This document shows, piece by piece, positions 52,478-54,165 of a stretch of DNA of 64,000 bases. Source of the stretch: Lysobacter sp. (GTDB lineage: Bacteria > Pseudomonadota > Gammaproteobacteria > Xanthomonadales > Xanthomonadaceae). The notes under the pieces were generated by a model. The model searched no databases. It was given only the letters and a program-made list of their open reading frames with translations, and had not been told where the DNA came from. The stretch is taken from assembly GCA_008015835.1 (NCBI GenBank), contig SSGH01000013.1:186001-250000 (forward strand), given 5' to 3'. The number at the start of each line of letters is the position of its first letter. Positions within the stretch are counted from its first letter, which is position 1. Both the position numbers and the translations under genes were made by a program.

Positions 52478-52538
52478 CGCTCCCGATCCGGTGCCGACGA
52501 CGATCGCCGCGTTCGCCACGGCGTCACCGCCAAGCCAG

Positions 52539-52555
52539 AGCAAATCGCGGGCCAA
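52539..52555 (-). promoter_or_regulatory. Sigma-54 (-24/-12) promoter of the eCIS operon
   Basis: Minus strand TTGGCCCGCGATTTGCT against consensus TTGGCACGNNNNTTGCW: one mismatch, with GG (52552-52553) and GC (52540-52541) at the required ten-nt distance. The preceding AAAGT also fits the extended consensus. Predicted start of transcription about 52528, 51 nt ahead of the first ATG. Confidence 0.85.
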
Positions 52556-52636
52556 CTTTCGAGCGGCGAAACCGCGTGCGTGTCGTCGCGACGAAAGCGA
52601 AAGCGAAATTCGGATCGCAATGCTCGCCGCGACGCG

Positions 52637-52649
52637 TAAGCGATTGATT
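52637..52649 (-). promoter_or_regulatory. IHF-binding site, exact consensus
   Basis: TAAGCGATTGATT on the plus strand equals YAANNNNTTGATW, i.e. the reverse complement of the IHF consensus WATCAANNNNTTR, with no mismatch. Centre at about -115, between the enhancer dyads and the -24/-12 promoter, where IHF bending is expected. Confidence 0.7.
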
Positions 52650-52749
52650 CGGTTCGGCAAGAAGAATGTTTTCGCGATGCGCGAACGATGCCGTGCACGC
52701 ATCGCGCTCGCGTATCGACGATGACGATTTCGCATCGCATCGGCATCGA

Positions 52750-52801
52750 CCGGGTCGGATTCGACCCGGCTTCGCGCGAACCCGGGTCGAATCCGACCCG
52801 G
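52750..52801. promoter_or_regulatory. Paired dyads, candidate enhancer (UAS) for the sigma-54 activator
   Basis: Two sites of the form CCGGGTCG-N4-CGACCCGG at 52750-52769 (N4 = GATT) and 52782-52801 (N4 = AATC). They are exact reverse complements of each other; centres are 32 bp apart, three helical turns, so two dimers would sit on the same face. Around -231 and -263 relative to the predicted start. The 12-nt spacer contains a further palindrome TTCGCGCGAA. No U-run on either side, so a terminator is unlikely. Confidence 0.7.
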
Positions 52802-53111
52802 CGCGTTCCGAAGAGGCTTGCATGCGATACGCAACGACGCTGTTCGAACGCCTGCCATTGCGGCCAAACGATGACCGTTCTTTTCGAGTTCTTGCGTTGT
52901 CGCGAGCCGTCACGATCATCGGCATGCGGATTCAGCACGCATGCCACTGCGCTCGTTGCGCGGTGTTCGTTGCGCAGCGATCTTTCCGCAGCGCTCGTTC
53001 CGCTGCAATCGATGCGCAGCACGACGCTTCTGCCGTGAGTCTTGCGGTCTGGATTCGGTCTTACGCGTGCGATTCCGCTCGCGGACGGATCGCGCGAGGG
53101 CGGAAAAGGCA

Positions 53112-53138
53112 GATCGAAATCGCCCGAAATCGGGGCGA
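53112..53138 (-). terminator. Terminator candidate after the activator gene
   Basis: Immediately after the activator stop the minus strand can form TCGCCCCGA-TT-TCGGGCGA (53120-53138, one bulge) followed by a short U-containing stretch TTTCGAT. It would separate the activator transcript from the eCIS operon. Confidence 0.5.
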
Positions 53139-53145
53139 AAAACCG

Positions 53146-54165
53146 TCAAATTCCGTATTTTTTGAGCATTCTGCCCAAGGCTCTACGCTCTTTTCCGGCC
53201 ATCGACGCCGCGCGGGTCACGTTGCCAGCGGCGGCGGTCATCAGTTGCCGCAGATAATCTTGCTCGAAATTCGACAGCGCGTGCGCGCGCGCATCGTTAT
53301 AGCGCGGCAACGAGGCGTCCTGCGCTTCCGCCCGCAGCAGCGGCGACGACGGCGCGGCGCTGCCCAGCGCCGTGGCCGGTCGCGAGAACATGATGCCTGC
53401 GAACGGCTGCAGATCGAGCACTGCGGCGTCCGACAGCAGCAGCGCGCGTTGCACCACGTTATCGAGCTCGCGCACGTTGCCCGGCCAGCGGTAATCGGCC
53501 AACCAGCGACGACTGCTCTCGCTGAAGGGGCGCTCGGCGACATCGTAATGGCGCGCATGCCGGCGCACGAAATGCTCCGCCAGCAACTGCGGGTCGCCGA
53601 TGCGATCGCGCAGCGGCGGCATCTCCAGCAACAACACGTTGATTCGGAACGCCAGATCGTCGCGGAACGAGCCGTCGTCGAGCAGCCGATGCAGACGCGG
53701 GCTCGCGGCGGCGATGATGCGGACATTGCTGATGCGATCTTGGCGGCCGCCGACGGAACGATAGGTCTTGTCCTGCAGGAAGCGCAGCAGCGACACCTGC
53801 GCCCGCTGCGGCAGCGAATCGAGTTCGTCGAGGAACAGCGTGCCGCCGTCGGCCGCGGCGACCAAGCCGCTGGTGGCCTGGCGGGCGTCGGTGAAGGCGC
53901 CGCGTTCGTAGCCGAACAACTCGGTTTCGATCAGCGTGTCGGGCACCGCGCCGCAGTTCAGCGCCACGAACGGCGCCTGCCGACGCGAGGACAGATAGTG
54001 GATCGCCCGCGCCGCCAATTCCTTGCCGGTGCCGGTTTCGCCTTGGATGAGCACCGGCGCGTCGAAACGCGCCATGCGCTCGACCATCGCCAGGGCGCGA
54101 AGGAACGGTTCGGATTTGCCGACGAAATTCGGCAATTCGGAAGCGGTCTTCGGGGGCATCGCCAT
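53146..54165 (-). CDS. Sigma-54 enhancer-binding activator without sensor domain (PspF/HrpS-like)
   Basis: 339 residues. The AAA+ domain starts almost at once: GETGTGKE Walker A (42-49), GAFTDA (89-94, the loop contacting sigma-54), [13 protein letters not shown]alker B, and [17 protein letters not shown]. The C-terminus (about 300-339, [21 protein letters not shown]...) is a Fis-type HTH. There is no receiver, GAF or PAS domain, as in PspF and HrpR/S, so control must come from a partner protein or from expression level. ATG 54165 has GGAG eight nt upstream; a second ATG follows two codons later. Its gene ends 591 nt ahead of a perfect-spacing sigma-54 promoter that drives the injection-system operon, and a terminator lies between, so it is very probably the operon-specific activator. 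Confidence 0.92.

Follow-up and report, generated by a model that had tools for sequence, protein, structure and literature searches.

A predicted sigma-54 control cassette upstream of an eCIS operon in Lysobacter sp. recurs in related genomes and ahead of type VI secretion genes

The DNA analysed here (the window) is a stretch of 64,000 nucleotides from Lysobacter sp. (contig SSGH01000013.1, positions 186,001 to 250,000). On its minus strand, a gene for a sigma-54 enhancer-binding protein (EBP) precedes a long operon, the first gene of which encodes a small protein designated P1. In the direction of transcription the genes are as follows:

53146..54165, minus strand: sigma-54 EBP gene, with AAA+, lid and Fis-type HTH_8 domains and the motif GAFTDA (domain search)
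52115..52477, minus strand: P1, first operon gene, 120 amino acids, winged-helix-like, conserved companion of the EBP
51558..52118, minus strand: Pvc16-type protein (PF14065), overlapping the P1 gene
49318..51561, minus strand: AAA ATPase with a winged-helix variant domain (start codon not fixed)
46273..48894, minus strand: contractile sheath (PF04984/PF17482)
45176..45655, minus strand: inner tube (PF06841)
33208..45160, minus strand: baseplate, spike and hub genes (T4_baseplate, Phage_GPD, Phage_base_V, gp25, Baseplate_J), with unassigned frames interspersed
24798..33544, minus strand: frames without assignment except DUF6519
8817..24154, minus strand: far-end frames of the operon

By its gene content the operon is an eCIS, as the earlier note on this DNA had held: sheath, tube, gp25, spike, baseplate J, Pvc16, AAA ATPase and eCIS_core genes were found in one cluster, with the eCIS_core domains in three large proteins at the operon's far end. 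The closest named sheath sequences (96%) are from two MAGs, a Lysobacteraceae bacterium and a Lysobacter sp. The sheath protein has 873 amino acid residues; distant relatives align mostly to the first ~200 and the last 310 of these, and the long middle stretch is its own. A NusG-type gene (2164-2670, minus strand; PF02357 at 1.8e-18, KOW below the cut-off) is located ~6 kb past the 3′ end of the operon and possibly encodes an RfaH-like antiterminator.

The EBP has the domains of a bacterial enhancer-binding protein (PF00158, 5.9e-59; HTH_8, 8.3e-06). Its description as sensorless holds because the frame has 340 codons from stop to stop; ~14 residues lie ahead of the AAA+ domain, which starts at residue 15. 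The loop motif is GAFTDA, compared with the canonical GAFTGA. The genome contains one rpoN-type gene and four genes of the HU/IHF family, which were not told apart.

Between the EBP gene (54165-53146) and the P1 gene (52477-52115, start codon at 52477), all on the minus strand, there are 668 bp of intergenic DNA with the following sites:

52539..52554, minus strand: predicted sigma-54 promoter TGGCCCGCGATTTGCT, of the -24/-12 type with one mismatch (pattern scan of the window), with a predicted transcription start at ~52528
52637..52649, minus strand: predicted IHF site AATCAATCGCTTA, exact, at ~-115 relative to ~52528
52750..52769, no strand: proximal dyad CCGGGTCG-GATT-CGACCCGG (plus-strand reading), predicted EBP site, centred at -231.5
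52782..52801, no strand: distal dyad CCGGGTCG-AATC-CGACCCGG (plus-strand reading), predicted EBP site, centred at -263.5

Sigma-54 promoters carry GG and GC at -24/-12 with 10 bases between them and near-consensus flanks, and TGGCCCGCGATTTGCT has this pattern. The consensus strings used for the scans were TGGCACGNNNNTTGCW for -24/-12 and WATCARNNNNTTR for IHF. The promoter (52554-52539, correct spacing), the exact IHF consensus (52649-52637) and the placement of all sites between the EBP gene and the first operon gene were found as previously described. The dyads, which had been called identical, have the positions given for them (-231 and -263) and identical arms, both copies matching CCGGGTCG-N4-CGACCCGG exactly with the proximal copy 32 bp from the distal one, but their 4-base spacers differ. 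As the arms are identical and the spacers GATT and AATC are reverse complements, the dyad pair is an inverted repeat as a whole. Within the Pvc16 gene, at 51957-51974, there is also a third dyad, CGGGTTG-N4-CGACCCG, which has one mismatch.

Chance expectation was taken from 5000 dinucleotide-preserving shuffles of the 668-bp stretch. Nine shuffles gave a correctly oriented -24/-12 site with no more than one mismatch, and 53 gave an IHF site in one orientation or the other; none gave even a single exact dyad. Across the window, -24/-12 sites with at most two mismatches number 9 against 10.75 expected, and a second site with one mismatch is present at 12598; taken alone in a 64-kb window, the -24/-12 pattern is evidence of little weight. 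Exact IHF sites number three in the whole window (0.48 expected). In a scan of the 4.39-Mb genome, CGGGTCG-N4-CGACCCG occurred without mismatch at these two places only, and with at most one mismatch at 17 places, compared with 7 for the reversed control pattern.

The earlier note had made its reading depend on conservation upstream of orthologous operons, and promoter, dyad family and activator do recur there, under 17 genus labels. A search for Pvc16 within the family matched 18 of 297 genomes, own included, and the other 17 were all fetched. An EBP homologue is directly upstream of the operon and co-oriented with it in 14 of these; none is directly upstream in the remaining three (G060, G103, G127). 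Class-wide, 30 of 369 genomes matched, own included, and the loci of 27 of the 29 others were fetched. P1 is present in nine of the 27, six of which have an adjoining EBP of the tree group described below, with L078 and L104 divergent, while in G500 the EBP gene is ~5 kb upstream of P1. No EBP was found in the stretches fetched around P1 in G603 and G660, which have P1, promoter and palindrome; their EBPs, encoded elsewhere in the genome, fall in the same tree group and came from a search with 50 matches (20 without a locus and not read).

The first 24 P1-bearing loci, own included, were compared over 6-20 kb each (44001-64000 for the window), with GG and GC required. In 23 of them, the P1 match is preceded at a distance of 72-151 bp by a -24/-12 site with two mismatches or fewer; this is the sole best site in 18 of the 23 and tied in four, and L119 has a better site elsewhere in the examined stretch. 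The dyad generalises to GGGT-N8-ACCC, which is present upstream of P1 in 20 of the 24. With eight more loci found via the EBP, the set was extended to 32 regions of 400 bp each. Of these, 31 contain a -24/-12 site with no more than two mismatches, where the remainder of the same loci, read on one strand, predicts 0.54; L087 has a site with three mismatches at the same place. GGGT-N8-ACCC occurs in 26 regions, 40 copies in total (0.14 expected), and was not found in L075, L087, L092, L095, L206 and L217. In 200 shuffles of the regions, at most three had a promoter and one a palindrome. The regions carry 17 genus and 9 family labels, but 23 of the 32 belong to the same family as the window and several closely duplicate one another (L208/L209, L112/L114, L123/L205), so that the counts are not independent. 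One of the loci is on a short contig without an eCIS gene (L219, G389), and in another the contig ends inside P1 (L205, G204). By comparison, 27 P1-less loci (453,622 bp) contain two -24/-12 sites with at most one mismatch, 34 with at most two, and six palindromes.

Without L087 and L209, 30 regions were scanned for IHF-like sites with at most one mismatch, of which chance predicts 0.098 per region. Such a site is present in 18 regions, an exact one in six, and none in the other 12. Between the window and L123, the only intergenic DNA that aligns beyond the gene ends is 52533-52801, from promoter to dyads, with 66% identity, while the flanking genes are 81-85% identical.

The cassette is not a feature of every eCIS. 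P1 is missing from 3 of the 17 family genomes and 18 of the 27 other class genomes, although several of the contigs are short, and in total from 23 of 47 Pvc16-bearing genomes (18 from the family and 30 from the class, own counted once), a count that includes G579 and G630 by assumption. At one further locus with EBP, P1 and eCIS genes (L233), neither a promoter with at most two mismatches nor a palindrome was found before the operon. Many eCIS are without this cassette.

By the starts chosen, the P1 proteins are 69 to 120 residues long, and P1 has the consensus stretch HPxAADTLxGIxxWWL. It matched no Pfam or NCBIfam family above threshold. Profile matches to Fur-, ArsR- and MarR-type PDB proteins were not significant (E 0.07 to 1.2), and a single-sequence model, of low confidence (mean pLDDT 64), has the order helix-helix-helix-strand-strand. 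All 24 genomes with P1, and one of the 23 without it (G616), match the window EBP at E <= 1e-76, a limit picked after the hits were known. Some hits below the limit are not in the tree; the P1-less G491 has a match at 2.2e-74, and the L224 EBP, from another genome, falls outside the tree group at 1.0e-75. The P1 profile had no match in 31 P1-less loci (28 from the Pvc16 searches plus L012, L013 and L025). With P1 of one relative as query, a single plasmid record was matched, from Cupriavidus sp. P-10, and no phage.

In a tree of 73 EBPs, one group of 40 (support 100/99) is made up of 28 rows labelled as eCIS-linked, two EBPs encoded in trans, six linked to type VI secretion systems (T6SS) and four others; the six T6SS-linked EBPs are one side of a branch (100/100). 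The motif is GA[FY]TDA in 38 of the 40 and GAYTGA in L207 and L221, whereas the 33 EBPs outside the group have G[AS][FY]TGA and none has D at that position. The tree leaves out L003, L008 and L147 (motif unreadable by the pattern), L222 and L223 (the same genes as L129 and L130), L005 (the window's EBP) and the second L224 EBP; matches in G292, G157 and G137 (second ones), G138, G090, G491, G359 (two) and G350 are also not included. The EBPs of L087, L092, L095, L104 and L108 have 452-469 aa and a longer N-terminal part, which gave no Pfam match in the two tried (L087 and L104). Group members in L218, L220 and L221 have neither a P1 nor a sheath match nearby. In L220 (G616; 8238-9644 and beyond) the EBP adjoins several frames with eCIS_core-like (EADR) stretches, as judged by eye, and a sheath match is absent over 19 kb. 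According to the available part of PMC4641369, GAFTDA is a known natural variant, among those expected to keep activity, and DVU2106, which has it, is given with target operons. For VfmH, also GAFTDA, sigma-54 was not recovered in a pull-down, as stated in the accessible portion of PMC10714721.

The EBP and P1 genes are not confined to eCIS loci. Pairs of the tree group precede T6SS genes (sheath, Hcp and TssF matches) in L211-L215. Two further loci did not enter the tree: L231, which belongs to another class of the phylum, has EBP, P1 and T6SS genes together with two palindromes and a -24/-12 site, and L232 has EBP, P1 and T6SS genes, with no palindrome or promoter of at most two mismatches ahead of them. 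Seven loci in total have the pair ahead of T6SS genes. L210 clusters with L211-L215 in the tree, a T6SS gene match being absent in its stretch. In L211-L215, GGGT-N8-ACCC palindromes are directly before the T6SS sheath gene (5/5) with no good -24/-12 site; the only second -24/-12 sites beside them have four mismatches (2/5). Across the phylum, 5 of 398 genomes (own counted) have an EBP match at E <= 1e-76. On the Cupriavidus plasmid, an EBP (GAYTNA), P1 and an eCIS sheath gene follow in a row, promoter and palindrome not being found by these patterns.

The P1 gene of L211-L215 has the EBP gene on one side and the -24/-12 site on the other, so P1 need not belong to the operon that the promoter precedes; this weakens the view of P1 as a mere structural protein of the eCIS. 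From these gene orders, EBP and P1 look like a sigma-54 cassette common to two contractile injection machines, eCIS and T6SS, and the cassette is predicted to control T6SS clusters in relatives of the window. The odds are about even that the GA[FY]TDA activator and P1 constitute a dedicated, exchangeable control module for both, in which P1 would be a signal-bearing anti- or co-activator that replaces the sensor and, as the first gene of the eCIS operon, would feed back. The GAFTDA variant, the P1 partner, the cassette at T6SS clusters and its absence from many eCIS go beyond the earlier note, whose observation is confirmed and whose interpretation is supported.

Our main reading, to which we assign a probability of roughly 90%, is that the EBP at the dyads, a bend by IHF and sigma-54 polymerase at -24/-12 drive P1 and the eCIS operon. 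EBP dimers would bind the two GGGT-N8-ACCC dyads ~230-265 bp upstream of the start, IHF at -115 would bend the DNA, and in the resulting loop the AAA+ ring would touch the sigma-54 RNA polymerase waiting at -24/-12, whereupon P1 and the eCIS operon that follows would be transcribed. As the activator has no sensor domain, the input would be the amount of activator or a protein acting on it, for which P1, the conserved companion, is the best candidate.

The dyads could instead be sites of another factor, a repressor or P1, with the EBP binding elsewhere or acting from solution. P1 looks winged-helix-like, by non-significant profile hits and a low-confidence model, and so could bind DNA, and regulators that control their own promoter are commonly encoded behind it. 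A pair of long dyads, here 32 bp apart, far upstream is a usual layout of EBP sites, as in NtrC. EBP and P1 co-occur too closely for co-occurrence to tell which of them binds the palindrome. We consider the assignment to another factor unlikely. Far less probable are readings in which the dyads serve to terminate or attenuate the EBP transcript, or belong to a dispersed REP-like repeat. Judged from sequence, each dyad could fold into a stem of 8 bp closed by a loop of 4 bases, but there is no T-run and a terminator scan of 52000-57000 called none there, and exact dyad copies are found nowhere else in the genome. The relatives, moreover, keep GGGT-N8-ACCC with differing middles even in L078 and L104, which have a divergent EBP gene, and where that gene is distant. 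Genome-wide uniqueness and the terminator scan rule out both readings for practical purposes.

A further alternative, compatible with activation of the operon by the EBP, accepts the promoter and questions whether the 44 kb are one all-or-none transcript: internal promoters, processive antitermination or polarity would shape how the distal genes are expressed. Against it, one-strand frames are close-packed over most of the operon stretch. In its favour, there is a 643-bp gap between the chosen frames at 24154-24798, and a NusG-type gene is present at 2164-2670. The available part of PMC8213781 names RfaH as a regulator of eCIS, and that of PMC11150451 states that the Caulobacter GTA cluster requires antitermination. 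All-or-none expression under sigma-54, as envisaged in the earlier note, is a prediction; that the transcript is divided or modulated in such a way has a chance only somewhat short of even.

The arrangement had been thought undescribed for an eCIS, and sigma-54 control of an eCIS was indeed not found among the matches listed in the open-licence literature, as far as these texts were available, nor in the accessible parts of PMC8213781, PMC10598620, PMC10599522, PMC12961389, PMC6653060, PMC4641369, PMC10714721 and PMC11150451; the word 'sigma' has no occurrence in the main text of PMC8213781. A review states, in its available portion, that the regulation of loci without conserved regulatory genes is unclear (PMC10598620). 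With a conserved promoter, operator motif and activator, regulation becomes directly testable for a recognisable group of eCIS, and the signature of GGGT-N8-ACCC, GA[FY]TDA and P1 provides a handle for finding further members.

PspF and HrpS are sensorless EBPs, consisting of AAA+ plus HTH, the activity of which is set by a partner protein in trans. The window EBP is similar in having AAA+ plus HTH and no sensor domain, and different in its targets; as P1 matches no Pfam or NCBIfam family, none in common with PspA or HrpV showed up. VasH-type proteins are sigma-54 activators of T6SS with an N-terminal sensor (GAF-like) domain. The likeness to these is in the position of a sigma-54 activator gene beside a contractile injection cluster and in the group members ahead of T6SS genes. 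Unlike them, the window EBP lacks the N-terminal sensor, has GAFTDA and the partner P1, and is beside an eCIS; VasH is not in the tree. Some T6SS are under sigma-54 control, and the one group 1 T6SS of Xanthomonadales has a sigma-54 regulator, according to the available part of PMC6653060 (the former citing Bernard et al. 2011). The cassette would link the control of eCIS to that of T6SS.

GerE/LuxR, BTAD and RfaH are not sigma-54 activators, in which they are unlike the window EBP. They resemble it in being encoded beside eCIS, as listed in the accessible text of PMC8213781. The Caulobacter GTA is alike in the use of a far-upstream activator and IHF on a phage-derived cluster, and differs in that GafYZ and IHF act at a sigma-70 promoter, activation going together with antitermination by GafYZ (PMC11150451, in the part available).
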